DNA of 64,000 nucleotides, taken from NCBI GenBank assembly GCA_021413845.1, contig JAIOPP010000020.1, positions 62,001 through 126,000 on the forward strand, written 5' to 3'. The notes beneath the pieces were generated by a model that saw only the letters and a list, made by a program, of their open reading frames with translations, ran no database searches and was not told the DNA's origin. Below, in pieces: positions 2,586 through 18,600 of this stretch (position 1 is the first letter of the stretch; each line of letters opens with the position of its first letter). The DNA comes from Planctomycetia bacterium (GTDB lineage: Bacteria; Planctomycetota; Planctomycetia; Pirellulales; PNKZ01). A program made the position numbers and the translations under genes.

Positions 2586-2621
2586 CTTCGTCCGGAGCAT
2601 CTCGGCCTGAGTTCGCTCTCG

Positions 2622-3941
2622 TCAGCGTAGTTGAACATCGTCGGCGGCGGGCTGCCGGAGACGCAAACGCGGCTGCCCGAGCGTCGGCTTTTCGGCCGTT
2701 TCGGTCGGCTTGCGCAAGCCGGAATTCGGCAGCGGCAAAAGACCCAACAAAGCGTTCGTCGGCGCTGCCAGCGGCACGAGCGCCTCGCGCTCCGGCGCGA
2801 GGGCTCGCAACAGGTTCGCGACCGGCTGCGGCCCGCTTTGCGGAACTTGCCAGTAGACGATGTCGTCGCGCCATAGCAAAGCGTCGTGCTGTTCGGCCGA
2901 ACGGGATTTGATCGTCAGCCCCTCGGAGTCGATCGAGAAATCGAACTCCAACCGATCGAACAACAGCGGCGGGCCTTCGGCGACCATCGTCTTCACGTCG
3001 CCCAAGCCGAGATGCACGATTCCGGCGCGCAAAAGATCGCGGCTGATCTGCCCGGGCCCTGCGACGATCGTTCCCCGCAGCCGCGCGATGCGCCCCGCGG
3101 CGAACTCCGCCCAATGAAAGCGGATCTCGCCGGTGCCCCAAAGTTGTTCGACGGCATGCCTGCCGACCAGCTGCCGAAAATCGACTTCGGTTGCATCGCT
3201 GCTCGTCATTCCTTCCCAGCCGCGCGCCGTTCGTCGGACTTTCAGTCGTCCGTTCCAGCGAGCTTGCTTGCCGAGCGAATCGGCCATATCGACCAACGGC
3301 ACGATCATCGCGCACGGAAGCAGCACCGCGCCGCTGCTGAGCTCGACGACGGTTTCCGGCGGCGAGCTCGTCGTATCGCGCGTCACACGCAACGCGGCCG
3401 GATGCGCTTCGTCGGAACCAGGCAATCGAAAACTGACCAACAACTGCTGCACGTTTTCTTCCGGGCCGAGAAGCCCCTCGAAGTCGACCAAGGTTTGCGA
3501 TTCCTTACCGACGTGCCATGTCAGCTCATCGGCTTTGATCCCGATTCGAGTTTCGATGTCGGGAATCTCACGCCGCAAGTGCCGCTCTAAGGCGGCGAAA
3601 AGCCTCGCGCCACGATCGGCGAAGATCTCCGCACCGGCAGCCCGCAGGCTCAACCCTTCGCTATCGGATATAGTCTCGACCGATCGACAATGAAGCACCA
3701 ACGCGCCGGTCTCGGGATCGTAGCACCGAAGCCCTTCCAACAGCGCACTTCCGGGCCGAGGATAACCGATACCGTCGAGTTCGACGCGCATCCCGGAGGC
3801 AGCTCCAAGCCGGACCTGCCAGGCTTCGCGGGTCGACTTACTTCGGCCTGCATAGCCGTAGAGCAACGTCGCCGCGGTCGGCAAGACGCAGAACAGCACG
3901 AAGAGAACTCGCAAGAGCGAGCGGCGTTGCGATTCGTGCAT
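2622..3941 (-). CDS. Exported or membrane-anchored AsmA-like protein, function unknown
   Basis: I do not recognise a precise family. The start is placed at the ATG at 3941 because a GGAGG sequence lies about 10 nt upstream (complement of 3952-3956); an in-frame upstream codon at 3989 lacks this. The protein is about 439 residues. It has an N-terminal hydrophobic segment after a basic patch (RRSLLRVLFVLFCVLPTAATL), consistent with a membrane anchor or signal sequence, followed by a long non-membrane region rich in alternating hydrophobic strands (LEGLRCYD, VETISDSEGLSLRAAG, LEFDFSIDSEGLTI). This pattern resembles AsmA/DUF3971-like beta-rich proteins on the outer side of the inner membrane, but I infer that from texture only. 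The C-terminal 60 residues are Pro/Leu-rich and look disordered. It is convergent with ccsA and downstream of aroC on the same strand. Confidence 0.6.
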   Translation of the reverse strand: MHESQRRSLLRVLFVLFCVLPTAATLLYGYAGRSKSTREAWQVRLGAASGMRVELDGIGYPRPGSALLEGLRCYDPETGALVLHCRSVETISDSEGLSLRAAGAEIFADRGARLFAALERHLRREIPDIETRIGIKADELTWHVGKESQTLVDFEGLLGPEENVQQLLVSFRLPGSDEAHPAALRVTRDTTSSPPETVVELSSGAVLLPCAMIVPLVDMADSLGKQARWNGRLKVRRTARGWEGMTSSDATEVDFRQLVGRHAVEQLWGTGEIRFHWAEFAAGRIARLRGTIVAGPGQISRDLLRAGIVHLGLGDVKTMVAEGPPLLFDRLEFDFSIDSEGLTIKSRSAEQHDALLWRDDIVYWQVPQSGPQPVANLLRALAPEREALVPLAAPTNALLGLLPLPNSGLRKPTETAEKPTLGQPRLRLRQPAADDVQLR

Positions 3942-4025
3942 GAAAAGAAAACCTCCGCTTCCTTGCGGCCCCGACACCGACCGCACCATCCTGATGCGAT
4001 CTCTACCGGCGTATTCGATGAACTG

Positions 4026-5165
4026 CTATCGTTCGCGAGCCATCTCCGAAAACAATCGGTAGCGTGCCTGCATTTCCATCAAACTATCGTTGCCGAATTT
4101 CTCGCAGAGAGCCGCGGCCACCTCGAACGCCACGACGTTCTCGACGATCACGCCCGCCGCCGGCACCGCGCACACATCGCTCCGCTCGTAGTTCGCCGCT
4201 TCGGTTTCTTTCGTGGCAAGATTCACGGAGTCGAGCGCTTTACGGAGCGTGCTGATCGGCTTCTTCGCCGCCCGTACGACCAGCGGCTGTCCGTTGGTCA
4301 TGCCCGCTTCCAAACCACCGGCGTTGTTCGTCGGGCGTTCGTAGCCGAGCGTCGGCGTTTCGCGCTTCGCGGCATCGTAATGAATGGCGTCGTGTACTTG
4401 CGAGCCGCGACGGCGCGCGGCCTCGAAGCCGAGCCCGATCTCGACTCCTTTGATCGCCTGCACGGCCATGACCGCTTGCGCGATTCGGCCGTCGAGCTTG
4501 CGGTCCCATTGAGCGTGCGTTCCTAAACCGAACGGCAAGCCTTCGACGCGCACTTCCAGCACGCCGCCGAGCGTGTCTCCTTCTTTGCCGACCGTATCGA
4601 TCAGGCTTTTGATCTCTTCGTCTTGCGCGATGTTGAGCGAATAGATCTCGCTCTTATCGCGCATCGCACGTTGTTCTTCGAGCGTGCCGGGCTGCGGTTC
4701 CAGGCGAACACCGCCGAGTTCGAGCGTATAGCCGAAAACCGTAATGCCGAACTCGCGCAACAGCTGCTTCGCGAGCGCGCCGGCCGCGACGCGCACGGTG
4801 GTCTCACGCGCGCTGGCGCGTTCAAGCACGCCTCGAATCGATCCCAAAAACTTAACCGCACCGGTGAGGTCGCCGTGGCCGGGCCGGGGGCGTTCTAAGT
4901 CGCCGAGTCGTTCGAGCTTGTAATCTTTGTTGACGACCTGGAGCGCGATCGGACTGCCGATCGACTTTCCTTGCCAAATGCCGCTGAGAATATCGACCTT
5001 ATCGGTCTCGATACGCTGCCTGCCGCCCCGGCCGTAGCCCCCTTGGCGTCGTAGCAATTCGGAATCGATTTCTTCGGTGCGCAGATCGACGCCGGCCGGA
5101 AACCCGTCGACGAGGGCGACGAGCGCTTTTCCGTGGCTTTCTCCGGCGGTCCAATAACGCAACAT
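4026..5165 (-). CDS. aroC: Chorismate synthase
   Basis: The last enzyme of the shikimate pathway converts 5-enolpyruvylshikimate-3-phosphate to chorismate using reduced FMN. The 379-residue length is normal. The N-terminus carries the family pattern YWTAGESHGKALVA. Further family blocks are present: a GRGGRQRIETDKV segment, GKSIGSPIAL, RPRPGHGDLTG, and RASARETTVRVAAGA, which corresponds to the conserved R-x-S-x-R-E-T region. The C-terminal segment with ERSDVCAVPAAGVI matches the phosphate/FMN-binding end of the family. The start is ATG with no clear SD. Other shikimate genes (aroDE, aroK) lie 45 kb away; aroA and aroB are not in the window. purC lies just upstream on the same strand, separated by about 150 nt. 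Confidence 0.97.
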   Translation of the reverse strand: MLRYWTAGESHGKALVALVDGFPAGVDLRTEEIDSELLRRQGGYGRGGRQRIETDKVDILSGIWQGKSIGSPIALQVVNKDYKLERLGDLERPRPGHGDLTGAVKFLGSIRGVLERASARETTVRVAAGALAKQLLREFGITVFGYTLELGGVRLEPQPGTLEEQRAMRDKSEIYSLNIAQDEEIKSLIDTVGKEGDTLGGVLEVRVEGLPFGLGTHAQWDRKLDGRIAQAVMAVQAIKGVEIGLGFEAARRRGSQVHDAIHYDAAKRETPTLGYERPTNNAGGLEAGMTNGQPLVVRAAKKPISTLRKALDSVNLATKETEAANYERSDVCAVPAAGVIVENVVAFEVAAALCEKFGNDSLMEMQARYRLFSEMARER

Positions 5166-5317
5166 ATGGCGACCAACAGACTCACGAACGGCATAAAGAT
5201 CGAAGTTGATAGACTTTCTATTCTACTTCGACCGCCGAAACGACGGTAGGTCGGATTCGCTGCCGGCAAGGCCCGCCGGCAACGTGCGGCGATGCGCTGA
5301 AGCCGAGAATCAGCCGC

Positions 5318-6220
5318 TTACTTCCAAGCGAATGCCCGGCCCGTAAGCTGTTCGTAGGCTTCGATATACTTAGCGCGGGTCCGCACGACGACCTCCTCGG
5401 GCAGCGGCGGCGGCGGACTGTTTTTGTCCCAGCCCGACGTCTCCAGCCAGTCACGCACGAACTGCTTATCGAACGAGGGGGGTGCTCGTCCCGGCTCATA
5501 GCGATCGACGGGCCAAAATCGTGAGCTGTCGGGCGTCATGACTTCGTCGATCAAAATGATCCCCTCCGAAGTCCGGCCCCACTCGAATTTCGTGTCGGCG
5601 ATGATGATCCCCCGCGTCAACGCATACTCGGCACCGCGGCGATAAACGTCGAGACTTCGCGTCCGGAGTTCTTCGGCAGTTTCAGTTCCTACTGCACGGC
5701 ACATCTCGTCGAAGGAAATATTTTCATCGTGCCCGCTCTCGGCCTTCGTCGCCGGAGTGAAGATCGGCTCCGGCAAGCGATCGCTCTCGCGCAATCCGGC
5801 AGGAAGTTTGATTCCGCACACGGTCCCGCTTCGGCCATACTCTTTCCAACCGGAACCCGAGAGATAGCCGCGCACGACGCATTCGATCGGCACCACATCG
5901 GTTTTGCGCACGAGCATCGTGCGCCCGCGGAGCACCTCACGATCGACACCCTTAGGCAATGGGGCTGCATCGACGTCCAGCGAAAGAACATGATTCGGAC
6001 CCGAGAGCAGCTCGAACCAGAAGGCACTGATCTGAGTCAGCACGCGTCCTTTGTCGGGAATGCCGGTCGGCAAGACCCAATCGAACGCACTGATTCGGTC
6101 GCTGGCGACGAGCAGCAATCGTTCCCCCAGATCATAAACATCGCGGACCTTGCCGCGACGAACGGGGATCGAAGGAATGTGCGACTCTAAAACCACGGAA
6201 GAGGTCACGGAAGATGTCAT
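5318..6220 (-). CDS. purC: Phosphoribosylaminoimidazole-succinocarboxamide synthase (SAICAR synthetase)
   Basis: This purine biosynthesis enzyme condenses CAIR with aspartate using ATP. The protein is 300 residues from the chosen ATG at 6220, nearer the longer yeast-ADE1-like form than the roughly 240-residue E. coli form. Diagnostic blocks are [12 protein letters not shown] (ATP-binding start), [26 protein letters not shown], the [20 protein letters not shown] segment, HDENIS, and [11 protein letters not shown] with [14 protein letters not shown]. An in-frame codon at 6289 would add 23 residues that do not look like the family, so I took the later start, where the sequence joins the conserved domain after a short Ser/Thr-rich leader. 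Confidence 0.97.
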
Positions 6221-6556
6221 CGATGCGCTCAAGAAATCGGCCGGCGGATCAGGGAAGTGGGGCACGGGTCGGAAATCGCGGCAATCCAACGTAGTGAGAA
6301 AGTATAGCAGACGACGTCCAAGCCAAACACGGTCGCATGGTTCCGCAACGCTGCGGACGCGTGCATCGGCCGATCAAGAATCGTGCCCGCTGATCGATGT
6401 TCACTCGTTTTCCAGCTTCGGGCAGCCATTCCCAACGGACATTTCAGCCCACGTGCAGGGTCGGCACGCCGCGTGCTTACTCATTCACTTCAGACTTAGA
6501 CAACGGGCAAGTTGCGACCGTCTACCCTCGCCCCTCCTCCTTTAGGAGAACGAATC
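6221..6556. other. Intergenic region between divergent purC and a DUF2892 gene
   Basis: About 336 nt separate the two divergent starts. It should hold promoters for both directions. I see no convincing -35/-10 pair, hairpin or repeat in it. The only clear signal is an SD (TTAGGAG) directly before the plus-strand gene. Confidence 0.5.
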
Positions 6557-7003
6557 ATGATTGCTTCTACTCGCGAACGTGTTCCGAAACATACGAATGC
6601 CTGCGTCAACGCGCGGATTCGAGAACAAACCCAGATGAGCATCGCCCATTATATGGCGGCCGGCGACGCTGCGATTTCCTTCCGGCTTGCGGAACTGGAT
6701 CGCGAGTGGGATATCGAACGATTTCTCGAAGCGAACGCCGCGACGGCATCGCTCGTCGGTTTGTCGCTCGGGGCACTGAAACATCGTGCCTGGTTCATCA
6801 TGCCGGCCGTGATCGCTGGTTTCTTGCTGCAACATGCCGTCGATGGCTGGTGCCCGCCGATGCCGGTTCTTCGTCGCCTAGGTTTCCGTACGGCGAACGA
6901 AATCGACTATGAACGCTATGCTCTAAAAGCACTGCGAGGCGACTTCCAAGACATTCCTGAGAATCAATCTCCGGATCGGGCCTTAGTCGCTGCGGAACGC
7001 TAG
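6557..7003 (+). CDS. DUF2892-like small membrane-associated protein
   Basis: The protein is 148 residues. The ATG at 6557 is chosen because TTAGGAG ends about 8 nt upstream; an earlier in-frame codon at 6512 has no such signal. Residues 50-75 (DIERFLEANAATASLVG, LGALKHRAWF) lead into two short hydrophobic segments (FIMPAVIAGFLLQHAVDG) and the CPPMPVLRRLGFRTANEIDYERYALKALRGDF tail. This is the layout of the DUF2892 (YgaP-like inner membrane) domain, whose function is not well defined; in some proteins it follows a rhodanese domain. Here it stands alone with a soluble N-terminal extension that contains HYMAAGDAAISFRLAELDREWD. It stands alone between two divergent or co-directional neighbours. 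Confidence 0.75.
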   Translation: MIASTRERVPKHTNACVNARIREQTQMSIAHYMAAGDAAISFRLAELDREWDIERFLEANAATASLVGLSLGALKHRAWFIMPAVIAGFLLQHAVDGWCPPMPVLRRLGFRTANEIDYERYALKALRGDFQDIPENQSPDRALVAAER

Positions 7004-7154
7004 GCCGATCGCACGGAAATCGAAGAGGAAATCTGCTCGGCGATGAACTTCGAGTGGGTGGGGAGATGCTTGTACGGCCGGCATGTCTGAGGTAGACTCG
7101 CGCGTCTATTTCGCACCCTCGAATGGTCGCTAATATCGCCTTAGCTGGTCCCCT

Positions 7155-8648
7155 ATGCCGGTCGGACAACTACGCTTCATCGTTCCCGACATGAGCCGTA
7201 TTTCGGATCGCTCGGCGCAGCAAGCGTACCTTACCGGCTTCGAGCCGATTCCGAACTATTGCCGCACGCGACTTAGTGAGGGAGAGCTTACGGTCGAACG
7301 CGAAGGGTTCGATTCGGTAAAGCTGAACATTCCTTGGCGCGTCGACGGCTTCGGGGAAATTCTCATCGGCTCCGCAACGCTGATGCAACGGGAGCGTCCG
7401 TATCTACTCCCGTTGGAATTAGCTCGGGGAAAGATCAATCAGGTTCGCAATCAGTTTGCGGAATGGCAACTGGCCGGTCTCGCTCAAACGCCGGCGCTCA
7501 AGGAAAAACTCTCGAGCGCCGTACGGCTTTTCACGGAAGCAGCGGTTCGGCAACACGAACCCGATACGGCGGCGAAGTATGCCCAAGAGGCGCTCGTCGA
7601 GGCTTTCGAGGCTGCACTGATCGTCGCCGATCTCTACTCCGAGCAGGCGCTGGTCTTTCGCCACCAAACGATGGCGAAGCTGCCGATCGCTTTCGGAACT
7701 TCGCTCGGGCGGGGCGTCGCCGAATCGCCGGTCTCGTTGCCGACCGCTTCGCTTTGCAACACGGCCGTCGTCCCGTTGATTTGGCGAAACACCTCGCCGG
7801 CTGAAGATGAATATCTTTGGGATTCCTACAACCAGCAGATCCAATGGTGCCGCAGCCAAGGAATGAACATCGCCGCCGGCCCCCTGTTGCGTCTCGATGA
7901 GCGCGGCTTTCCGGATTGGCTTACCGCTTGGCAAGGCGATGTGGATGCCATCACCGCATTCTCCGCCGAGTACGTTGCGAAGACCGTGCAGCAGTTTCGA
8001 GGACGCGTGTCGTTCTGGAATTGCGCGACGTTTTCTTATCGAGCGCAATCGCTCGGCCTCAAAGACGAAGACAAACTACGGATCATCGCTCGGGCCATCG
8101 ATACGGTCCGCCGCTTCGATGCCGACACGCCGTTGATCGTCAGCTTCGATCAACCGTGGGGGGAGTATCTTCGGAAACTTCCGTTGGCCTATCCGCCGAT
8201 TCATATCGCCGATCATCTCGTCCGCTCGGGCCTCCCCATTGCCGCGTTGGGGCTGGAACTCGAGGTCGGCTACCATCCTGACGGTTCGTATCTTCGCGAC
8301 CCCCTAGAGCTCGGCAAGCTCATCGATGCTTGGTCCATGCTCGGCATGCCGTTGTATGTGTTTCTCACGGTGCCGAGCGGCGAAAGCCCCGATCCGCTCG
8401 CGGAAGGAAGATCGTCGCCGATCGCGGGTGCCTACGCGGGGGGCTGGTCACCGGCAGCGCAAGCGGATTGGGTACGCAAGTGCGTGCCGATACTTCTGGC
8501 GAAGCCGTCCGTGCAAGGGATCGCTTGGCAACAATTGCGCGACGACGAACCGCACGACCTTCCGCACGGCGGACTGTTCGACTTCGAAGGGATGCCGAAG
8601 CCCGCACTCACGGCGCTGGCTTATCTTCGCAAACAGCATTTGATTTAA
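7155..8648 (+). CDS. Divergent GH10-like (endo-1,4-beta-xylanase family) protein
   Basis: The protein is 497 residues with no signal peptide. The first 200 residues form a beta-rich, then helical region (FIVPDMSRISD at the start) of a kind I associate with planctomycete proteins annotated as endo-1,4-beta-xylanase. The C-terminal 300 residues look like a TIM barrel: IAAGPLLRLDERGFPDWL, the block VSFWNCATFSYRAQ where GH10 enzymes have the acid/base W-N-x-x-N-E pattern, PLIVSFDQPWGEYL, and a long C-terminal SVQGIAWQQLRDDEP. The expected acid/base glutamate next to the WN pair is not visible (NCATFSY instead), so catalytic activity as a xylanase is doubtful. No SD is evident at the ATG. It converges with the phosphatase gene across 43 nt. 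Confidence 0.65.
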   Translation: MPVGQLRFIVPDMSRISDRSAQQAYLTGFEPIPNYCRTRLSEGELTVEREGFDSVKLNIPWRVDGFGEILIGSATLMQRERPYLLPLELARGKINQVRNQFAEWQLAGLAQTPALKEKLSSAVRLFTEAAVRQHEPDTAAKYAQEALVEAFEAALIVADLYSEQALVFRHQTMAKLPIAFGTSLGRGVAESPVSLPTASLCNTAVVPLIWRNTSPAEDEYLWDSYNQQIQWCRSQGMNIAAGPLLRLDERGFPDWLTAWQGDVDAITAFSAEYVAKTVQQFRGRVSFWNCATFSYRAQSLGLKDEDKLRIIARAIDTVRRFDADTPLIVSFDQPWGEYLRKLPLAYPPIHIADHLVRSGLPIAALGLELEVGYHPDGSYLRDPLELGKLIDAWSMLGMPLYVFLTVPSGESPDPLAEGRSSPIAGAYAGGWSPAAQADWVRKCVPILLAKPSVQGIAWQQLRDDEPHDLPHGGLFDFEGMPKPALTALAYLRKQHLI

Positions 8649-8691
8649 TCGAGCGCTGACGCGCGCTCACCGTCTTCATGCCGACGAATGC

Positions 8692-10380
8692 TTAAACGCG
8701 GCCGAAGCAGATAAGGCAACGATCGTCGCTCTGCGCACGCTTGCCGACGAAGAGATTCACATCTTCGAGAATCGCCTTGCCGAGCACGGCGGAACCACGG
8801 CCTGCCTTGTTGAGTTGCACTTCCAAGCGCTCGAAGCCGTAAAGCAGATTGTCGGAGTTCATCGCTTCATTGATGCCGTCGGTGTAAAGCGTGAGCACGT
8901 CTCCCGGCAAGAGAGGAACCGTCGCCGCTTCGAACTCGGCATCCGGAACGACGCCGAGCGGCAAGCCTTTCTCGTTCTCGCCGATCATTTCGACTCGGCC
9001 GTCGGCGTGTCGCAAATACGGAGACATGTGCCCGGCATTGACAACCGTGACTTCGTGTCGGACGGGATCAAGCGTAACGGAAACGAAAGTCACGAATCGA
9101 TCTTGCCAATCGCTCCGTGCGAATCCGGCGTTGAGTCGATTCACGGCATCGGCCGGCGAGGTGCTGCTCGCCAACGAATAGCGCACGTCGGCCGAGAGCT
9201 TCGCCATGAGCAATGCCGCGGGCATCCCTTTCCCCGCCACGTCGCCGATTACGACCGCGATGCGCCCCCCTTGGAGCGGAACATAATCGAAGTAGTCGCC
9301 GCCGATCTGATTGGCCGCTTCATAGAAATCGAAAAACTCATACGACGAAATCTGCGGCGGCGTGGCAGGCAAGAAGCCTTGCTGCACCTTGTGAGCGAGA
9401 TCAAGATCGCGCTCGAAAGCTTGTTGCCGTAAGGCGTCGGTATGGAGCTGCGCGTTCTCGATCGCAAACGCGGCTTGATAGGCGACCCCCGCCAAGACGT
9501 CGAGATCGCCCGACTGGAATCGGCTTCGCTGGTCGAGCGTGTCGATCTGGATAACCCCGAGCGCCTTACCCGAGGTATCGATCAGCGGCGCACACATCAT
9601 CGAGCGAATCCGAAAATCGGCGATGCTCTGGCTGCCGTCGAAGCGGGTATCGCCGGCCGCATCGGCCGAAAGAATCGCTTCGCACGACGTCATCACCTGA
9701 TTCACGATCGTGCGACTGATCCGAATCGATTCCGCATCGTCGCCCCGTCGATACTTCACGGCGCGCGGAACCAAGGTCCCCGTCGCCGGGTCGCGCAGCA
9801 CGACGAAGCCGCGGTCGGCTTGAATAAAAATCTTAAACAGACTGTCGATCACTTTGCCGAGCACGATGTTCAGATCGATCGAAGTCGCGAGGTTGCGCGT
9901 GATCTCGAGCAGAGCTTGCAGCTTCAACTCGGGATTGACCGAGATCTGAAAGCCCGACTTGTTCGACTGTACGTCGAACGACGACATGATCGTTCCGGCG
10001 GTCTTTTCGCTGGTGTCGTCGACGAACGTCGCACGCGAGCTATCGTCGAGCGGGATGATCGGCGGCGCGAGTTCTTTGCCGCCGACCGGAGTCCCTTGAT
10101 GAAAGGCGAAGATGATGTCGCAAACCTTCACGCGGTCGTTCTCTTGCAACCGCTGACGACCGCTGACGACCTCGCCGTTCACGAACGTCCCGTTGCGGCT
10201 CTTCAAATCTTCGACGAAGAACTCGTTGTTCTGACGCACCACGACGGCATGTTGCCGGCTCACGGCGCCGACATCCAAGACGATGTCGCATTCCGGATGA
10301 CGGCCGAGAATCATTCTCTCGCCGCTCAATTGAAAGATTTGACCGGCGGTCATTCCCTTGAGAACTTGCAGTACGGCCAT
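8692..10380 (-). CDS. FHA-GAF-PP2C (RsbU/SpoIIE-type) serine/threonine phosphatase
   Basis: The protein is 562 residues with three domains in order. Residues 1-100 are an FHA phosphothreonine-binding domain (ERMILGRHPECDIVL, VSRQHAVV, DLKSRNGTFVNG). Residues about 145-320 are a GAF sensor domain. Residues about 330-562 are a PPM/PP2C SpoIIE-type phosphatase with metal-site aspartates in NQIGGDYFDYV, GDVAGKGMPAALLMAKLSADVRY and LTLYTDGINEAMN. Such proteins usually dephosphorylate anti-anti-sigma or signalling partners in response to a GAF ligand or a phosphorylated FHA target. No kinase, anti-sigma or STAS gene is adjacent. There is no membrane segment, so it is probably cytoplasmic. Confidence 0.93.
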   Translation of the reverse strand: MAVLQVLKGMTAGQIFQLSGERMILGRHPECDIVLDVGAVSRQHAVVVRQNNEFFVEDLKSRNGTFVNGEVVSGRQRLQENDRVKVCDIIFAFHQGTPVGGKELAPPIIPLDDSSRATFVDDTSEKTAGTIMSSFDVQSNKSGFQISVNPELKLQALLEITRNLATSIDLNIVLGKVIDSLFKIFIQADRGFVVLRDPATGTLVPRAVKYRRGDDAESIRISRTIVNQVMTSCEAILSADAAGDTRFDGSQSIADFRIRSMMCAPLIDTSGKALGVIQIDTLDQRSRFQSGDLDVLAGVAYQAAFAIENAQLHTDALRQQAFERDLDLAHKVQQGFLPATPPQISSYEFFDFYEAANQIGGDYFDYVPLQGGRIAVVIGDVAGKGMPAALLMAKLSADVRYSLASSTSPADAVNRLNAGFARSDWQDRFVTFVSVTLDPVRHEVTVVNAGHMSPYLRHADGRVEMIGENEKGLPLGVVPDAEFEAATVPLLPGDVLTLYTDGINEAMNSDNLLYGFERLEVQLNKAGRGSAVLGKAILEDVNLFVGKRAQSDDRCLICFGRV

Positions 10381-10694
10381 AGATGCAACGGAAAGAATGC
10401 TCGAAGTGTTTCGCTATTCGCGGCTTCCGAAGCGCGATCGAAATCACGCCGCACGAACCGATCTTCGACAGGCTGCGCACGCTTACGGGATGCCGGAAAG
10501 CCATCGCCGAACAGGTTTGCATCGAAGACGACCGATTTTAGGGGTCGCGCGCAGTCGGAGTCAATCGCCCGTCGCAGCACTTGACGCTTAAAGCTAACCG
10601 TTCTACCTTACGGAGGTTGCGTCGATTCGTTCGCATCTCTTCGACGCCTCTCGTGGCCGGTCGCGACGGACCTCGTCGACGATTTCGGCACCTT
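10381..10694. other. Intergenic region upstream of the FHA phosphatase and of tRNA-Gln
   Basis: The stretch of 314 nt lies between divergent transcription units. Short open frames on both strands run through it without SD signals or recognisable protein texture, and I call none of them genes. No clear promoter or hairpin stands out. Confidence 0.5.
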
Positions 10695-10765
10695 TCCGGG
10701 ATGGTGTAATGGTAGCACGACTGGCTCTGAACCAGTTAGTCGGGGTTCGAGTCCCTGTCCCGGAG
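10695..10765 (+). tRNA. tRNA-Gln (anticodon CTG)
   Basis: A full cloverleaf can be drawn. The acceptor arms 10695-10701 and 10758-10764 pair perfectly (TCCGGGA with TCCCGGA), and the discriminator is G10765. The D arm contains GTGTAATGGTAGCAC, and the anticodon stem is ACTGG/CCAGT with loop CTCTGAA, which gives anticodon CTG for codon CAG. The T arm is CGGGG-TTCGAGT-CCCTG. CCA is not encoded; the next bases are CTA. It is a monocistronic gene with its own terminator. Confidence 0.96.
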
Positions 10766-10769
10766 CTAG

Positions 10770-10803
10770 AAGCCTCGTTTCCTTGTGGAAGCGGGGCTTT
10801 TTT
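10770..10803 (+). terminator. Intrinsic terminator of tRNA-Gln
   Basis: A 13-bp stem (10770-10782 with 10787-10799, two G-U pairs) with loop TTGT is followed directly by a run of six T (10798-10803). It starts five bases after the tRNA discriminator base. Confidence 0.92.
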
Positions 10804-11278
10804 ATGCGCCATCGATGGGCCGCAACCAATTGCGCTTTAATGAATGAGTGCGTCATCGTGCTCGGCGAGCTGCGAGACTTGCCTCGATCCGCAACCGTCG
10901 CTGGCCGGAGCGGTCGTCCGGGTTAACACACAATTTCCGACCGAAGCTTAGTTCTCCGTGAGAATCGTGTTCGCCTAGCCCGTGTGCAAGGCGTGCATAA
11001 GCCTGACGCACATGTCGGCGCGCCGTTTCGGCGTAGCGAATTGGCGGCTCACGCGTAATTGCCGTCTGTCGAGCGATTCGCGACTTGCGGCGACCTGCGA
11101 GTCGAAATCTTTTTTCTTAGCGGCACCATTGTTGCTTATCAACCGCCGCACCTCTTTCGCTCGTTCGCGCGACCACGCCCGCGTGAATTCTTCGTTTTTT
11201 CACTGACAGTCTCGCTCGCGCCCCACTGCAAAACAATTTCCATTCCCAGCGGTTGAGTTACGGATCACGGAGTCGGTC
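10804..11278. other. 475-nt non-coding stretch upstream of the ABC ATPase
   Basis: I see no supportable gene here. The longest open frame (10982-11206) has no SD and no protein-like texture. The stretch contains a candidate terminator (11075-11115), which suggests that a short transcript from 10804 onward ends there. An SD (CGGAG, about 11268-11272) at its end serves the next gene. Confidence 0.5.
11075..11115 (+). terminator. Candidate intrinsic terminator upstream of the ABC ATPase
   Basis: The stem CGACTTGC (11081-11088) pairs with GCGAGTCG (11097-11104), including one G-U pair. The loop is eight bases. Outer pairs GATT/AATC lie across a small internal loop. Six T follow (11110-11115). 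No gene lies directly upstream on this strand after the tRNA terminator, so it would end an unannotated short transcript or act as a leader attenuator for the gene at 11279. Confidence 0.5.
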
Positions 11279-12214
11279 ATGGCTTACCTGGAAATCAAGA
11301 ATCTCAGAAAATCATTCGGTTGCGGGCCGGGCAAGGTGGAAGCGCTCGATCAGGTGAACTTTTCGGTCAAGGCCGGCGAATTCGTCGCCTTCGTCGGCGC
11401 GCCCGGAAGCGGCAAGACGACGCTCGTCTCGCTCGTCGCCGGGCTCATCATGCCGGACTTCGGCTCGATCACGCTCAGCGGCAAGCCGGTCGTCGGTCCC
11501 GGGCCCGATCGCGGCATCTTGGCCCACTCGCAAACTTTGCTCCCTTGGCTCAGCATCATCGACAACATCGCCGTGGCGGTCGAGACGGTGCTCCCTTCGT
11601 CGACGCTGATGCAACGACGTCGCCATGCCGAGAAGTACGTCGAGATGGTCGGCCTGTCGTCGAATATGCACAAGAAGCCGCGCGAGCTTTCCGACGGAAT
11701 GCGGCAACGCGTATCGCTTGCCCGCACGCTCGCGATGAATCCCGACGTCATGCTTTTCGACGAGCCGCTCGGGGGGCTGGTCAGTTCTTCACGACACGAA
11801 ATGCAAGCGTTGATCGGTCGGATCGCCGCGATCGAGCGCAAGACTTGCCTGTGGATGACGGACGACGTCGAAGAGGCGGTGTTGCTCGCAGATCGCGTCA
11901 TCGCGCTCACGCCCGGACCGCGCTCGACCGTCAGCAGTGAATTTACCATCGACCTACCGCCGCGCTCCCGCGACCGCAAGCTAGCGCAGACCGCGCGGTT
12001 CCATGCTTTGTGCGATACGATCGAGACCCATCTCCTCACGCAGCGCGAAGAAAAAATCCTGCGACCTCTGTGCCCGGCCGAGATTCGCCCCGCCCCTCCG
12101 CATGCGGTCTTCCATGCGGAGACGGCGGCAACGGAGCCCGCAGCGAGCGAAAATCTGGCGGCTCCGCACATGCTGGATAAAGCGAGCACGATGATGCTCA
12201 TGCATCATCCGTAG
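11279..12214 (+). CDS. ABC ATPase of the nitrate/taurine (NrtD/SsuB/TauB) type with altered catalytic motifs
   Basis: The protein is 311 residues and aligns throughout with NrtD/SsuB/TauB ATPases, which energise uptake of nitrate, sulfonates or taurine. Walker A is intact (GAPGSGKTT, Lys46) and Walker B keeps the catalytic glutamate (VMLFDEP, Glu162). Four other positions that are near-invariant in the family differ: the Q-loop Gln is His83 (GILAHSQTLLPW), the signature reads LSDGM rather than LSGGM (Asp139), the D-loop Asp is Val168, and the H-loop His is Asp195 (WMTDDVEEA). About 75 C-terminal residues after the ATPase core are Ala/Pro/His-rich and unrecognised. No permease or binding-protein gene is adjacent. 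The SD GGAG lies 6 nt before the ATG. It may be a regulatory, non-transporting or asymmetrically paired subunit. Confidence 0.85.
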   Translation: MAYLEIKNLRKSFGCGPGKVEALDQVNFSVKAGEFVAFVGAPGSGKTTLVSLVAGLIMPDFGSITLSGKPVVGPGPDRGILAHSQTLLPWLSIIDNIAVAVETVLPSSTLMQRRRHAEKYVEMVGLSSNMHKKPRELSDGMRQRVSLARTLAMNPDVMLFDEPLGGLVSSSRHEMQALIGRIAAIERKTCLWMTDDVEEAVLLADRVIALTPGPRSTVSSEFTIDLPPRSRDRKLAQTARFHALCDTIETHLLTQREEKILRPLCPAEIRPAPPHAVFHAETAATEPAASENLAAPHMLDKASTMMLMHHP

Positions 12215-12250
12215 TCGTCACCGTTTTACTTGGCTCGGATTTTAGCTTTG

Positions 12251-12793
12251 CTAATCGCGGCTGCGCTTCGAGCGATTGATCGCCCGCGGCGGTAGCGGAG
12301 CAAGGGGCGGCAGCCAAACGATGTCCGCGGCCAAAGGACTCGTTTCCAAGATCGCGATCGACGGCTTACGATAAGTCCAGCCGCTCGTTTCTCCTGGGTT
12401 CACGAAGAGCCGCCCGCCGGCATCTCGTTCTACGCTCGGCTTGTGCGTATGACCGTAGACGATCACGTCGGCCCCTTCGATGTCGCCGCGCAGAAGCTCG
12501 AATTGATGGGTTACGAGGATGCGAGTTCCATCTGAGGCGCGAAACCCGAGGGGCGGGTCGCCGACCGAGCCGACGATGCGCAATCCGCCCAACAGCCCAA
12601 CCTTGTTTCCTTCATTGTCCCCGAAGCAGCCGATCAGCTTGCAGTTCAGATCGCGCAACACCGGCACGACGAACGTCGAAACGAAATCGCCGGCGAAGAC
12701 GACCAGTTCGCACCGGCGCGCATTAAACTCGGCCACCGCCGCGCGGGCATTATCGAGATGATCGTGGATGTCGGCGAAGATACCGATGCGCAT
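12251..12793 (-). CDS. YfcE/MJ0936-type metallophosphoesterase
   Basis: The protein is 180 residues. It has the calcineurin-like metal-binding motif series: D-x-H in FADIHDH (Asp8, His10), GD in VVFAGDFVS, GDNE in IGCFGDNEGN, a histidine in ILVTHQFE, and GHTH in VIVYGHTHKP, followed by FVNPGETSGW. These small enzymes hydrolyse phosphodiesters; the natural substrate of this one cannot be told. Its ATG lies three bases after the stop of the sugar kinase upstream, so the two are almost certainly cotranscribed and translationally coupled. The C-terminal tail is Pro/Arg-rich. It converges with the ABC ATPase across 36 nt. Confidence 0.9.
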   Translation of the reverse strand: MRIGIFADIHDHLDNARAAVAEFNARRCELVVFAGDFVSTFVVPVLRDLNCKLIGCFGDNEGNKVGLLGGLRIVGSVGDPPLGFRASDGTRILVTHQFELLRGDIEGADVIVYGHTHKPSVERDAGGRLFVNPGETSGWTYRKPSIAILETSPLAADIVWLPPLAPLPPRAINRSKRSRD

Positions 12794-12796
12794 ACG

Positions 12797-13885
12797 CTAC
12801 CGGCGCACGCGCCCGGCACCGGAACCGCCGACCAGCGCCTCGATCTCGTCGCGCGAGGTGAAATTGAAGTCGCCGAGGATCGAATGCTTCAAGCAGCTTG
12901 CCGCGACGGCGAAGTGCAAGGCTCTGCCGGGAGCGGAATACTCGGGAGTATTCAAAGCGAAGAGCAGCCCGGCCCCGAACGAGTCGCCGCCGCCGACACG
13001 GTCGACGATGTCGCGAATTTCATAAGGCTTGTAATTGCCGCCGGCGTCGAGCGGAGCGTAATAGGCTCGCTTTTCGCCCGCCTCGTAGAGCATGCCGCCC
13101 CAATTGTTGTGATCGGCCGAAAGGCTTTCGCGCAAGGTTACCGCCACCCGGCCGATATTGGGAAACCGCCGCACGATCTCGCGCGCCACTTGTTCATAGC
13201 CGGCGATATTCAATTTTCCTTGCTCGACGTTCGTTCCCTCGGCATGGATATCAAGCACATCGGCCGCATCTTCTTCGTTGGCGATCAGAAGATCGACCGA
13301 CTTCAACATCTCGCTCATGCACTCGCGCGCCAGCAGATTCGGCGCCGTGCCGGGTCGCCAACGCCAAAGCTTCTTGCGGAAGTTCAAATCGCAAGACACG
13401 GTCGCCCCGCGCTCTTTCGCCATCCGCACGAGAGCCAGCGTCGCTTGATAGGCTCGTTCGCTGAGCGACGGCGTGATGCCGGTCGCATGCACCCAACGGA
13501 CCCCTTCGAGTGCCGCGGCGAAATCGTATTCCTCCGGCGCGGCCAGCGAGATAGCGCTGAAGTCGCGATCGTAAGTCACGCTCGAGCCGCGCTGGTTGGC
13601 GCCGGCTTCGACGTAGTAGATGCCGAGCCGCCCTTCGCTGCGCCGGCGAAGCGTGCCGACGTCCACCCCTAAGCCGCGCAGGTTCGTCGTCACGGCGTCG
13701 GCCAGCATGTTTTGCGGCAGCATCGTGAGATAGCGCGCCTTCGCCCCGAGCAGCGCGAGCGACACGCAAACATTCGCTTCCGCGCCCGCGAACGTAACAT
13801 CGACCGAACCGGGAAGAACTTGCGCCAACCGGCGATGGCCGGAAGGAGCGACACGCATCATGATTTCGCCGAAGCCGAGGAACAT
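12797..13885 (-). CDS. kdgK: PfkB-family sugar kinase, 2-keto-3-deoxygluconate kinase type
   Basis: The protein is 362 residues. It opens with GFGEIMMRVAPSGHRRLAQ and FAGAEANVCVSLALLGAKARYLT, which match the KDG kinase branch of the PfkB family. YYVEAGANQRGSSVTYDRDFSAIS is the substrate-side block. The C-terminal ATP/anion-hole signature is DRVGGGDSFGAGL, with the catalytic aspartate in GGGDSF. KDG kinase phosphorylates 2-keto-3-deoxygluconate in the breakdown of uronic acids. I chose the ATG at 13885; the in-frame TTG two codons upstream is less likely. It lies 52 nt downstream of the sulfatase on the same strand, in a cluster that fits uronate-containing glycan use. Confidence 0.85.
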   Translation of the reverse strand: MFLGFGEIMMRVAPSGHRRLAQVLPGSVDVTFAGAEANVCVSLALLGAKARYLTMLPQNMLADAVTTNLRGLGVDVGTLRRRSEGRLGIYYVEAGANQRGSSVTYDRDFSAISLAAPEEYDFAAALEGVRWVHATGITPSLSERAYQATLALVRMAKERGATVSCDLNFRKKLWRWRPGTAPNLLARECMSEMLKSVDLLIANEEDAADVLDIHAEGTNVEQGKLNIAGYEQVAREIVRRFPNIGRVAVTLRESLSADHNNWGGMLYEAGEKRAYYAPLDAGGNYKPYEIRDIVDRVGGGDSFGAGLLFALNTPEYSAPGRALHFAVAASCLKHSILGDFNFTSRDEIEALVGGSGAGRVRR

Positions 13886-13937
13886 TTGCAAAAGCCGAGT
13901 AAGAGGAAGAAGCTACCGCCGCCGTTCGCGGAATCGA

Positions 13938-15365
13938 CTACTTATAACTTGCGTGAAGCCGTTTGCGAAGGTCCGCGAGCGTCTCACCGAGGGTTCGATC
14001 TTCGGCCAAATTCTTCAACTCTTTCGGGTCATGCTCATGATCGTAGAGTTGAACTCCTTGCCGGCCTTCGTCCCATTCCGTGTAGCGATAGCGCTCCGTG
14101 CGGATGCTGCGCCCCATGAAGCTCTTGCTGCTGCCCGCGGGAGCCTGCTTGTTGTTACGTGCCACTTGCGAAAACGCAGGCTTCGTCCAAGCGGCTTGAG
14201 GGTCCTCAAGCAGCGGCTTCAGGCTTGCGCCGTCGAGCGGCGTCGGGGCGGGAAGATCACATAGCGCGGCGAGCGTGGGATGCAGGTCGATGAGTTCGAC
14301 CGTGCGGCGGCACGGCTTGCCGTTCCCCTTCGCGCGCGGGTCGTAGATGATGAGGGGAACTCGCGCCGACTCTTCCCAAACGCTGAGCTTCTGCCAGAGA
14401 CCATGCTCGCTCAAATGGTAGCCGTGGTCGCTATGGAACACGACGATCGTTTTATCGGCGAGCCCGAGCCGTTCGAGGGCATCGAGGAGCTTTCCAAGCT
14501 GCGCATCCATGAGCGACATACTTGCCAAATAGGCTTGAATCGCCTCGCGGCGAAGTGCATCGGTGAGTTTGTTTTGCTCCGCTTTCTCACTGCCGAAAGC
14601 AGCCGCAGGGACACCGGTTTTATGATCCGATCCGACTTCCGTCGGCGCACATTGATCGAGCGGATATAGCTCGAAGAACTTCTTCGTCGCCACATAGGGC
14701 GTGTGCGGACGATAGAATCCGCAAGCGATGAAAAACGGCTTATCTTGGTTAGCTTCGAGCAGCTTGATCGTCTCGGTAGCACCAATGCCGTCGGTCTGGT
14801 CGTCGTCGCTGCCGTCGACGGCGAGCCAACTCAACGTGCCGCCGAACTGGCGCGGCGTGAGCGTGAAGATGTCCGCTTCCACGTCTTTGTCGCGACCGCG
14901 CGGATTGACGACGTGTTGCCACGAAGGGGGATCGTCGAGCCCGCTCGTGCCGATTCCGCCCGGCACGCCGTAGTGATAAAGCTTGCCGACGCGGGCCACG
15001 TAGTAGCCCCCTTTGCGAAACGTCTGCGGCAGCGTCTGCACATCCGGGACATGGGTTCGAGTCTGCGTTTCGTTCTCGTAGATCTTCGTGTGGTCGGGCC
15101 GAAGTCCGGTAAGAAACGACGCCCGACTCGGGTTGCAGAGCGGATACTGACAATAGGCCAAGTCGAACCGCACTCCCTTGGCCGCGAGCCTGTCGATGTT
15201 GGGAGACTTCGCCAATGGGTCGCCGTAGCAAGCGAGGCGATTGCAAAGATCGTCGGAGACGACGTAAAGGACATTCATCTTCCGCGGCGCAGGCTCGGCT
15301 GCCGAAAGGGAAATCGCATGCGTCGCCGATAATAAAAATAAAGCGCAAAGCAGTGAGCGATGCAT
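13938..15365 (-). CDS. Secreted Cys-type sulfatase, iduronate-2-sulfatase-like
   Basis: The protein is 475 residues from the ATG at 15365, where a signal peptide begins (MHRSLLCALFLLSATHAISLSA, with A-E-P after it). The metal site VVSDDL is at residues 36-40. The formylglycine motif C-x-P-S-R is CNPSR (Cys77), followed by ASFLTGLRPDHTKIY. Later blocks GKLYHYG, GFYRPHTPYVATKKFFELYP and VFHSDHGYHLSEHGLWQK belong to the iduronate-2-sulfatase-like branch, which removes sulfate from uronate- or hexosamine-containing glycans. It depends on an anaerobic or FGE-type maturase that is not in the window. It sits between the isomerase/epimerase and the KDG-type kinase. An in-frame codon at 15461 would put 32 unrelated residues before the signal peptide. 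Confidence 0.93.
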   Translation of the reverse strand: MHRSLLCALFLLSATHAISLSAAEPAPRKMNVLYVVSDDLCNRLACYGDPLAKSPNIDRLAAKGVRFDLAYCQYPLCNPSRASFLTGLRPDHTKIYENETQTRTHVPDVQTLPQTFRKGGYYVARVGKLYHYGVPGGIGTSGLDDPPSWQHVVNPRGRDKDVEADIFTLTPRQFGGTLSWLAVDGSDDDQTDGIGATETIKLLEANQDKPFFIACGFYRPHTPYVATKKFFELYPLDQCAPTEVGSDHKTGVPAAAFGSEKAEQNKLTDALRREAIQAYLASMSLMDAQLGKLLDALERLGLADKTIVVFHSDHGYHLSEHGLWQKLSVWEESARVPLIIYDPRAKGNGKPCRRTVELIDLHPTLAALCDLPAPTPLDGASLKPLLEDPQAAWTKPAFSQVARNNKQAPAGSSKSFMGRSIRTERYRYTEWDEGRQGVQLYDHEHDPKELKNLAEDRTLGETLADLRKRLHASYK

Positions 15366-15479
15366 GGGCGTGGTCTCGCGAACGTGCCGTGTGGGCCGAG
15401 TGTGAGCGACGTAGTATCGAGCGCCGCGCAGCGGCGAGCAAGCGAAAACGGGCGCTCGCATCAGGCGGCGAGAAACGAC

Positions 15480-16193
15480 TTAACTCCGCGAGATTCGCCG
15501 TGTTTGCAGCCACGTATCGAAGAGCAGCCGATCCATCGTCAGATCGTTTTTCGTTTGGTATTCCAGGTCGACTTCGCTGACGACGAACCCTTCGTAACCG
15601 ACCTCGGCCAAACGATCCAAAACGGCGAACACATATTCGCGGCTGTTGTACATCGGCCGATGCTCTTCCGGCCCGCCACGGCTTCCGGGGAGATGCACAT
15701 GCCGGAGCTTCGCGCCCTGCGCGGCCAACAGCCTGCCGACGGCTTCCGCCGCCTCGGCACACGAAGCGCCGGGATGCGTGAACATCCAAAGGTGCTCGGC
15801 ATCCAGCGTAAGAAAAGCATTTTCTTCCGCCCAACGCTGAAACTCCGCCAGCGCGAGCGAGCCGTTTTCAACCGTGAGGCAAACCCCAGCGTCGAGCTTC
15901 GCAATCTCGGGCGCGTACCGGTCGAACTCCAATTGATGGATCGTCATGCTCCGGCAATCGAGTGCTCGATAAAGATCGACCACCGCCCGGAGCTGCCGCG
16001 GCGTAAGATCGCGGCGATTCGGAAAGTGCAGGGAGTACCGCAAGTCGAAACGCTGAGCCAAGTCCGCCGTGTGCCGGACATCTTCCAACACGCTCGGGCC
16101 CGTCCAAAGCTCGGCGCAGCGGTAGCCTGACTCCACGGCGATTCGAAACGGCGCCTCTTCGTCGGGCTTGAGCTTGGTGGCAAGTTCGAACAT
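15480..16193 (-). CDS. Sugar phosphate isomerase/epimerase (AP-endonuclease-2 TIM-barrel family)
   Basis: The protein is 237 residues. It begins at the ATG at 16193, four bases after the stop of the upstream esterase gene. Textures of the xylose-isomerase-like TIM barrel are visible: CAELWTGPSVLEDV, YSLHFPNRRDL, MTIHQLEFDRY, VCLTVENGSLAL with a metal-binding Glu, FLTLDAEHLWMF, and LRHVHLPGSRGG. The end reads GFVVSEVDLEY. Members include hydroxypyruvate isomerase, sugar epimerases and endonuclease IV; the catalytic specificity here is not visible. The context of esterase upstream and sulfatase downstream supports a sugar substrate. Confidence 0.8.
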   Translation of the reverse strand: MFELATKLKPDEEAPFRIAVESGYRCAELWTGPSVLEDVRHTADLAQRFDLRYSLHFPNRRDLTPRQLRAVVDLYRALDCRSMTIHQLEFDRYAPEIAKLDAGVCLTVENGSLALAEFQRWAEENAFLTLDAEHLWMFTHPGASCAEAAEAVGRLLAAQGAKLRHVHLPGSRGGPEEHRPMYNSREYVFAVLDRLAEVGYEGFVVSEVDLEYQTKNDLTMDRLLFDTWLQTRRISRS

Positions 16194-16197
16194 CGGG

Positions 16198-18600
16198 CTA
16201 CTTCGCGCTCTCCACCTTCGCCCAAAACGGATGCTGCCGATCGCTGCGCGTGCGGGCATCTTCCAGCATCACGGCCGAATCCGGTTCGATATAGGCGCTC
16301 GGCTTTTTGATTCGTTTGTTCTTGATCGTCACTTCGCACGGTCGCTTGAAGTCGATCAACTCCGGCGTAAGCCAAACGGTCGCCGAAGCGGCAGCCGTAA
16401 CCACGTCGATGCCGTTGACGAAATTGACTTTCGCGGTCGTGTGGATCGCTCCCGAGACCTTATGCGGCCAAGTGTCGGGATCGACGAGTGCCCGTTCCGG
16501 GGGATCATGCGTTTCGACCCACCAAAACGAACCGTCCCACAAGCGCAGGCTGCGGCACGTAAAATTTTTCGGCGTGAAGTCTCGTTTCTGCCGGCCCATC
16601 CAATCGAACAGCCGGAGCAACTCATCGGAAAAATGCTCATGCCCCCGGCCTTTGAATTGCACGACGGTCGTGTTGGTTCCGCGAGTCAGGTAGTGATCTA
16701 AGTTCGTCGCATCTTTCACCCAAACGGCGCCATCCATCTCGCCGAAGACCAAATACATCGGCACATACTTGGCGTTGTCTTGGTAGAGCGAGATCGTCTT
16801 ATCGGCAATCGGCGTCATTCCGATATACCCGGCCCAAAGATCGGGATGGGCCAGGGCAATGTCCCAAGCGGCATCGCCCCCCATCGAGTGGCCGGTAATG
16901 AAGATGCGGTCGGTATCGATCGAGAAGCGACGCAGCGCATCGCGCAAGGCATAGAGCACCGCTCCGTGCTCTTGCTCCGAATAGTTGCACGACGTTTGCT
17001 GCTCGGCGGCCCAAGCCGGTGCGATGACGATATAGCCGTGGCGATCCGCCTGACCGAAGCGAATCCCTTCGTCGGTTGCCGGCCCTGCCCACCAGTCGAT
17101 CTGCTTCGCGGGAGACGTCCCCGCGGCATGCAGCGTAACGATCGTCGGGTAGCGACGATGCGGGTCGTATTCACGCGGCAGTTGCACGAGATAATCGATC
17201 GGCACTTGGTTCGCCAAATCGTCGACTTGCAGCTCATAGAGCCCGACCACTTTCTTCGAGGGCTCCGGCAACGGCAGCGGCGGCTTCAGCAGCGACAACA
17301 AGCGGGCCGTTAGCTCCGGCGTAAAACCTTCTTGTTTTCGCATCGAAGCGAGCAATTCGAGGAGCGGGGCATCGCCGTTTCTACGCGAGGTCTCCGCTAA
17401 GTAAGTGCGAATCAAACCGCGGACATCGAACATCGAGAGTGCCGTCGGGAGATTGCGCACCGCGAAATCGCTTCCTCCCAACCAACCGCTGACGGCCAGC
17501 GCGATCTTCTCTTCGGCCGGCATCTCGGCATCGGCCTCGAACTGCATAAACGCCGCCATCCGATCGAGCGTGTTGATACCGAGTTCCGCCTTGATTTCAT
17601 CGCGTGCTTCGGCGAGTCTCGCACGGAGTGCCGAGTCTTTGATTTGGCTCATCACTTCATCGAATCGTCGCAGTGCGGTTTTGCCCCGTTCATCGATCTG
17701 CTGGTATTCCTTCACGAGTCCTCGGACCGCTTGCAAAGTTTCACCCGCGACATTCTCGGCGGGAAACTCTTCCAACAACGAATATGAAAACCGATTCTGG
17801 CCGGCTTTCTTGCGCGTTTCGATCTCTTCCAGAATTCGACGTGCGCCGGCCTGACGTAGCCGCACTCGGGTCTGCTCGAACACTTGCTTCTGGTTCGCCG
17901 GTAGCGATGCGAAGTCCTTGATGATCGCCGCGAGTTCCGATTCCGCATCTTTGAAGCGTTCGCTTTGCATATACAACCGAACGATCTTCAAACGCTGATC
18001 AAGATTCTTAGGATCGATATGCTTTTCGAGAATCCGGCCCAGCATTTCACGCGGAATGGAATTCGTCGCGATTCGCATGTCCCAAATGAAATGCATGTTC
18101 TCGGCATCGACGCATTCGAGCTTCGTCCAGTCGGAGGTGACCTCGGTGATCCCTTGAATCACGCGTTGCGGCCCGAGATTCGTCTCCATCGAAATCACGC
18201 GCCGGCCGAACTCGTCGAACGGCGTGATATTGAAGATCGAGCCGACCGCCGCAACACGACTGCCGTTTTCCGTTATTTGCTGCGGTATCTCGAACGTCTC
18301 TACGGGATCGCCGGCATCGAGCATGTTGACTTCTTGGATCTGCACTTGCGGCACGTAGATCCGGCGCAAACCATCGTCGATCAACACGATGGTCTTGGCG
18401 GCGCTCGCCGTGGCGGGATTTTCGATGACCGACGTAATCGGCGCCTGCCGCCCCGTGAAGACCCGGCCGTCTTTCATCACCGTGCGCGCAGCTTCGGCGA
18501 AAGGAGCCCCAAGGAAGCCCAGTGCCGCCGCGAGGCCGATCGATGTCGCCCACTTCCGGCCGATCCGACGAGGTCGAGCAGTATCGAGGTGATGCACCAT
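16198..18600 (-). CDS. Secreted two-part protein with C-terminal alpha/beta-hydrolase (esterase/peptidase-like)
   Basis: The protein is 800 residues from the ATG at 18600; an in-frame GTG at 18642 is the alternative. The N-terminus has a twin-arginine-flavoured signal peptide (RRIGRKW, then a 15-residue hydrophobic run ending AEA). Residues about 35-170 are beta-rich (MKDGRVFTGRQAP, IYVPQVQIQEVNML), and residues about 170-440 form a long helical repeat-like region (KIVRLYMQSERFKDAESELAAI). Residues about 450-700 are an alpha/beta-hydrolase with YDPHRRYPTIVTLHAAG, the nucleophile elbow GHSMGGDAAWD (Ser about 572), GEMDGAVWVKD and a catalytic-type His in GRGHEHFSDE. This looks like the esterase fold of PHB-depolymerase or prolyl-oligopeptidase-like enzymes. 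It is the first gene of a probable operon with the isomerase/epimerase. Substrate unknown; acetyl or other ester groups on polysaccharide are plausible. Confidence 0.75.
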   Translation of the reverse strand: MVHHLDTARPRRIGRKWATSIGLAAALGFLGAPFAEAARTVMKDGRVFTGRQAPITSVIENPATASAAKTIVLIDDGLRRIYVPQVQIQEVNMLDAGDPVETFEIPQQITENGSRVAAVGSIFNITPFDEFGRRVISMETNLGPQRVIQGITEVTSDWTKLECVDAENMHFIWDMRIATNSIPREMLGRILEKHIDPKNLDQRLKIVRLYMQSERFKDAESELAAIIKDFASLPANQKQVFEQTRVRLRQAGARRILEEIETRKKAGQNRFSYSLLEEFPAENVAGETLQAVRGLVKEYQQIDERGKTALRRFDEVMSQIKDSALRARLAEARDEIKAELGINTLDRMAAFMQFEADAEMPAEEKIALAVSGWLGGSDFAVRNLPTALSMFDVRGLIRTYLAETSRRNGDAPLLELLASMRKQEGFTPELTARLLSLLKPPLPLPEPSKKVVGLYELQVDDLANQVPIDYLVQLPREYDPHRRYPTIVTLHAAGTSPAKQIDWWAGPATDEGIRFGQADRHGYIVIAPAWAAEQQTSCNYSEQEHGAVLYALRDALRRFSIDTDRIFITGHSMGGDAAWDIALAHPDLWAGYIGMTPIADKTISLYQDNAKYVPMYLVFGEMDGAVWVKDATNLDHYLTRGTNTTVVQFKGRGHEHFSDELLRLFDWMGRQKRDFTPKNFTCRSLRLWDGSFWWVETHDPPERALVDPDTWPHKVSGAIHTTAKVNFVNGIDVVTAAASATVWLTPELIDFKRPCEVTIKNKRIKKPSAYIEPDSAVMLEDARTRSDRQHPFWAKVESAK

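Follow-up and report, generated by a model that had tools for sequence, protein, structure and literature searches.

A degenerate, orphan NrtC-like ABC ATPase of a planctomycete genus with a possible role outside transport

We analysed a window of 64,000 nucleotides from a Planctomycetia bacterium (positions 62,001 to 126,000 of contig JAIOPP010000020.1, assembly GCA_021413845.1), whose genome, hereafter G000, is 7.08 Mb in size and 99.6% complete; sulfatases and similar genes give it a gene content that looks planctomycete-like. An open reading frame at 11279-12214 of the window (forward strand) runs from ATG to TAG with no internal stops and encodes a protein of 311 aa, which the frame itself, the family match and the trees described below together identify as a degenerate NrtC-like orphan ABC ATPase. 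The protein carries an ABC_tran domain (Pfam E 1.6e-27) and belongs to the ABC ATPase (NBD) superfamily; its best NCBIfam model is ntrCD (E 1.1e-59), with a score of 201.9 bits that lies below the cut-off of 291.8. In line with the initial annotation, the ten proteins scanned around the gene (window 99-16259) include neither an ABC permease nor a binding protein. Genome-wide, G000 has neither an NrtB-like permease nor a nitrate reductase: none of its 12 BPD permease domains is NrtB-like, and its next-best ABC ATPase is only 34% identical to the window protein. Promoters and terminators were predicted around the gene at chance level. A tRNA-Gln (CTG) gene lies about 500 bases upstream (10695-10766), and an FHA-GAF-SpoIIE domain protein is encoded on the reverse strand at 8692-10380, with 79-80% identity within the genus. 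The sibling orthologues of this protein and of the neighbouring phosphoesterase have no orphan ATPase alongside; an ABC gene beside the phosphoesterase of the sibling genome G006 was considered as an orphan and rejected, being a different ABC gene with a 26% match.

The catalytic residues of the window protein are partly kept and partly replaced, exactly at the positions initially annotated. Retained are Phe13, an A-loop-type aromatic (11315..11317, forward strand as are all motifs given here), the Walker A motif GAPGSGKTT with Lys46 (11396..11422), and an intact Walker B Asp161-Glu162 (11759..11764). Replaced are the canonical Q-loop Gln by His83 (11525..11527), the second residue of the canonical Ser-Gly-Gly signature by Asp139, giving Ser-Asp-Gly (11690..11698), the canonical D-loop Asp by Val168 (11780..11782), and the H-loop residue by Asp195 (11861..11863), where NrtC-type relatives have Asn and NrtD-type relatives His; the codons at 83, 139, 168 and 195 are cac, gac, gtc and gac. 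Where a functional ATPase has an LSGGQ-type signature, a Q-loop Gln, a D-loop Asp and an H-loop His, the window protein thus reads LSDGM, His, Val and Asp. Among canonical relatives, Gln83 and Asp168 are each present in 58/58 sequences, and Gly139 in 29/29 of the NrtC type and 10/29 of the NrtD type. Might the protein nonetheless hydrolyse ATP despite its unusual motif residues and serve a distant permease? Lys46 and Glu162 are in place, and by analogy MRP1 retains transport with Asn or Gln at one H-loop (PMC7756269), but in the window protein the signature Gly, the Q-loop Gln and the D-loop Asp have all changed, the H-loop carries Asp, unlike either residue tolerated in MRP1, and G000 yielded no matching permease, which makes continued activity very unlikely.

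The closest solved chains to the window protein are the ATPases of the nitrate importer NrtABCD (NrtC/NrtD; PDB 8w9m, 8wm7, 8wm8) and their relatives CmpC/CmpD (9u9z, 9ua0, 9ua1), with which it has the NBD fold in common at 33-37% identity. In contrast to the window protein, which has none of the four, NrtC, CmpC and CmpD keep Gln, SGG, Asp and His, and the ATPases of NrtABCD and of the bicarbonate importer work in a permease complex, whereas no permease accompanies the window protein. An AlphaFold2 model built on a 28-row alignment reached pLDDT 93-98 for the greater part of residues 1-260, with lower values of 84-89 near residues 81-90 and 221-240, and its best Foldseek matches were the CmpBCD and NrtBCD ATPases, with TM-scores of about 0.9 to separate NBD chains. 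The C-terminal tail (residues 262-311; 12062..12211) had been proposed to carry a new role; this finds little encouragement, as the tail is predicted to be disordered (pLDDT about 47-63), is unconserved and is not common to the other orphans described below, and canonical NrtC-type proteins of this group are also variable at the C-terminus.

Within the taxonomic family, strong full-length matches to the window protein (48-51%) were confined to two other genomes of the same genus, G004 and G006. The closest canonical relatives are the NrtC-like first ATPases of the nitrate operons of these two genomes (L012 in G004 and L011 in G006; 47-52% identity), the two of the genus that have the importer. 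They are canonical except for Asn at the H-loop, and they form the sister clade of the orphans. The G004 operon encodes, in order, a sigma-54-type regulator, an alginate-export-type porin, an NMT1-like NrtA, NrtB, the first and the second ATPase, and then a molybdopterin nitrate reductase, a nitrite reductase and a flavoprotein reductase. The nitrate reductase homologue of G006 (L155, G006:C512:5734-8862) is interrupted by three in-frame stops where it matches; the G006 operon may be decaying, or these may be assembly errors. As in G000, NrtB and nitrate reductase (NasA) are absent from a fourth genus genome, G005; G000 thus has the orphan without the operon.

The H-loop Asn extends well beyond the genus. 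All 29 NrtC-type first ATPases examined in the order combine canonical Walker A, Q-loop, signature, Walker B and D-loop with Asn at the H-loop, and 14 NrtC-type sequences sampled elsewhere in the phylum, in further orders and classes, have Asn there too. These sequences comprise L012:1501-2382 (forward strand) and relatives in L011, L017-L043 and L108-L128. The 29 NrtD-type second ATPases all have the H-loop His, and position 2 of their signature is Gln in 18/29 (Asn in one). These NrtD-type partners include the one encoded at L012:2407-3204 (forward strand); where the signature reads LSQGM, its position-2 Gln would share a composite ATP site with the H-loop Asn of NrtC. Cyanobacterial NrtC, CmpC and CmpD have His at the H-loop. 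Since an H-loop Asn can function in MRP1, the planctomycete-type NrtC displays asymmetry, not proven inactivity. At one further locus (L127, G628:C22:273290-274933) both ATPases apparently share a single uninterrupted frame and may be fused as NrtC-NrtD. Literature searches found no paper that deals with planctomycete NrtC, and none that deals with orphan NBDs like the present one. Because the NrtC-type parent already has Asn at the H-loop, one of the apparent losses in the window protein is ancestral, and the step in the window gene was from Asn to Asp.

The window gene has counterparts across the genus. An orphan copy is present in all four genus genomes (G000, G004, G005 and G006), as second copies unlinked to the operon in G004 (L013) and G006 (L014) and as a copy cut by the contig end in G005 (L050). 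We searched 396 genomes of the order with a profile built from all four orphans. It scored at least 450 bits for the three full-length orphans and 260 bits over 137 positions for the cut G005 copy; all other matches reached at most 330 bits, and those examined were operon-type first ATPases. The orphan is therefore genus-specific as far as sampled. Its loci differ between genomes, with the phosphoesterase and the SpoIIE-type protein in G000, the same DegT-like aminotransferase gene in G004 and G005, and what we take to be globin-like and DinB-like genes in G006; no conserved neighbour hinting at a partner recurs across the four loci.

Alignment of the orphans changed how the substitutions are to be read. 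The initial annotation had seen four coordinated changes, to be checked by their joint conservation in homologues. In the order window, G004, G006 and G005, the Q-loop residue is H/Q/P/Q and the signature SDG/SEP/GEP/TE-; for the first three, with G005 beyond its contig end, the Walker B Glu position is E/D/D, the D-loop V/E/D and the H-loop D/S/S. Common to the orphans are only the acid at position 139 (4/4) and, where readable, the lack of both His and Asn at 195. As they differ at the Q-loop, the Walker B Glu and the D-loop, the four changes are not conserved together as a unit: the orphans are altered at overlapping but different sites. Nor did the losses prove enriched in motifs over background, as the window protein has lost 12/41 invariant NrtC positions in motifs versus 12/36 outside them. 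Such an even spread is easier to reconcile with a protein freed from every transporter duty than with a redesign aimed at four catalytic residues. The ATP-binding elements have a different fate, since the aromatic at position 13 (F or Y), Lys46 and Thr47, and Asp161 where readable, are retained in all orphans.

Trees placed the window protein inside the NrtC-type clade. With all alignment columns it grouped with the other orphans next to the genus nrtC (support 99/94), and the grouping persisted after removal of the motif columns (97/90); the alternative of joining the window protein to the operon nrtC was 4 log units worse (p-AU 0.08). Moreover, 16/24 of the invariant NrtC positions lost by the window protein are also lost in the G004 orphan, against an expectation of 8.7 (p=0.0003). 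The window gene and the other orphans therefore probably have a common origin, although the long branches in the trees, that of the window protein measuring 0.54-0.65, stop short of proof.

We then weighed whether the gene is under selection or is a slowly decaying relic, a left-over ATPase gene drifting after the transporter had gone from the lineage and yet to gain a stop. For the window copy, such slow decay is the main rival to a functional reading: the nitrate operon is missing from G000, losses at NrtC-invariant positions are even inside and outside motifs, and the terminal branch is long. However, the 311 codons contain neither stop nor frameshift, and GC by codon position (0.64/0.46/0.78) resembles that of the neighbouring genes, with the contrast between third and second positions retained. 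In neutral simulations, the share of runs that gained no stop was 3.4% at 0.2 substitutions per site, 1.8% at 0.3 and 0.2% at 0.5. These indirect signs favour coding constraint on the window copy. Its own dN/dS was set aside as uninformative, since dS of about 1 to every relative is near saturation and the copy is too diverged for the measure. The G004/G006 orphan pair is under strong constraint, with dN 0.14 and dS 0.88 (NG86) or dN 0.12 and dS 2.14 (YN00), i.e., dN/dS of about 0.06-0.16; comparison pairs gave dN 0.13 and dS 0.80 for nrtD and dN 0.21 and dS 0.95 for nrtC, so the orphan is constrained like nrtD and more than nrtC. A homologous orphan also persists in every genus genome, and in G004 and G006 it coexists with the operon, which argues that it is not simply a remnant of operon loss. 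We regard a relic as less likely than a functional role. The original preference for something other than random decay is supported for the orphan family; it is weaker for the window copy.

If the protein is functional, it might act through a partner ATPase. The suggestion of an asymmetric pair, of which it would be the degenerate half, does not hold in G000, which lacks both NrtB and an NrtC/NrtD-grade partner and so does not supply the canonical partner NBD and transmembrane domain of a heterodimer. The exporter precedent serves only as a lead: in heterodimeric exporters (TAP, MRP1, CFTR, Pdr5), catalytic and signature residues are replaced too, often with nucleotide binding retained, and the influence of degenerate sites on the canonical partner site is well documented (PMC7756269), but there the degenerate site pairs with a canonical one inside the transporter. 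By analogy, the window protein could be a modulating or dominant-negative NBD that joins another importer's ATPase (or NrtC/NrtD, in genomes that have them) in poorly hydrolysing mixed sites and so tunes transport. The predicted intact fold and the LLPW and DVEEAV stretches kept in the window copy are compatible with this; with LLPW lost in the G004 and G006 orphans, and with the partner and permease gaps of G000, we regard it as improbable. A contact with the nitrogen regulator PII could also have been retained, with the orphan titrating or reporting on it. The lead here is that Synechocystis PII binds both NrtC and NrtD (PMC6603209) and that a structure of NrtBCD with PII is available (8wm7). 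Planctomycete NrtC-type proteins, at about 290 aa, nevertheless have no equivalent of the long C-terminal extension found in cyanobacterial NrtC (682 aa), and this analogy appears extremely unlikely to hold.

We favour, at a probability of roughly one half, the reading that the window gene encodes a genus-specific, hydrolysis-deficient but ATP-binding NrtC paralogue with a transport-independent role. An nrtC paralogue would have arisen in or before the genus ancestor and now stands apart from the operon. With the signature Gly, D-loop Asp, Q-loop Gln and H-loop residue, it would have lost ATP hydrolysis and the ability to complete a partner's site, while the aromatic at 13, the Walker A Lys/Thr and the Walker B Asp would preserve the nucleotide-binding parts. 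Judged from sequence, the protein may hold ATP or ADP without turnover and, soluble and nucleotide-bound, may act in a non-transport process as a sensor or as a binding partner. Of the initial proposal, the orphan status and the broken hydrolytic motifs are supported. As all four genus genomes keep a copy, even the two without the importer, the orphan probably has a small non-transport job. Weighing against this reading are the divergence of the window copy, including its losses at invariant non-motif positions, and an orphan grouping that is not fully secure, given its p-AU and a long-branch warning. More tentatively, the orphans may constitute genus-wide soluble pseudo-ABC-ATPases derived from NrtC, non-hydrolysing, nucleotide-bound regulators independent of transporters, with ATP binding kept and the signature Gly changed to an acid.

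Should the window protein prove to bind ATP without hydrolysing it, and its gene to have a phenotype, it would represent a clean natural passage from importer ATPase to pseudo-enzyme outside any transporter, with the active parent surviving in sibling species and available for comparison. A by-product may be equally important: the planctomycete-type NrtC of our phylum sample apparently lacks the H-loop His, so that asymmetry between ATPase sites can be put to a direct test in a nitrate importer.
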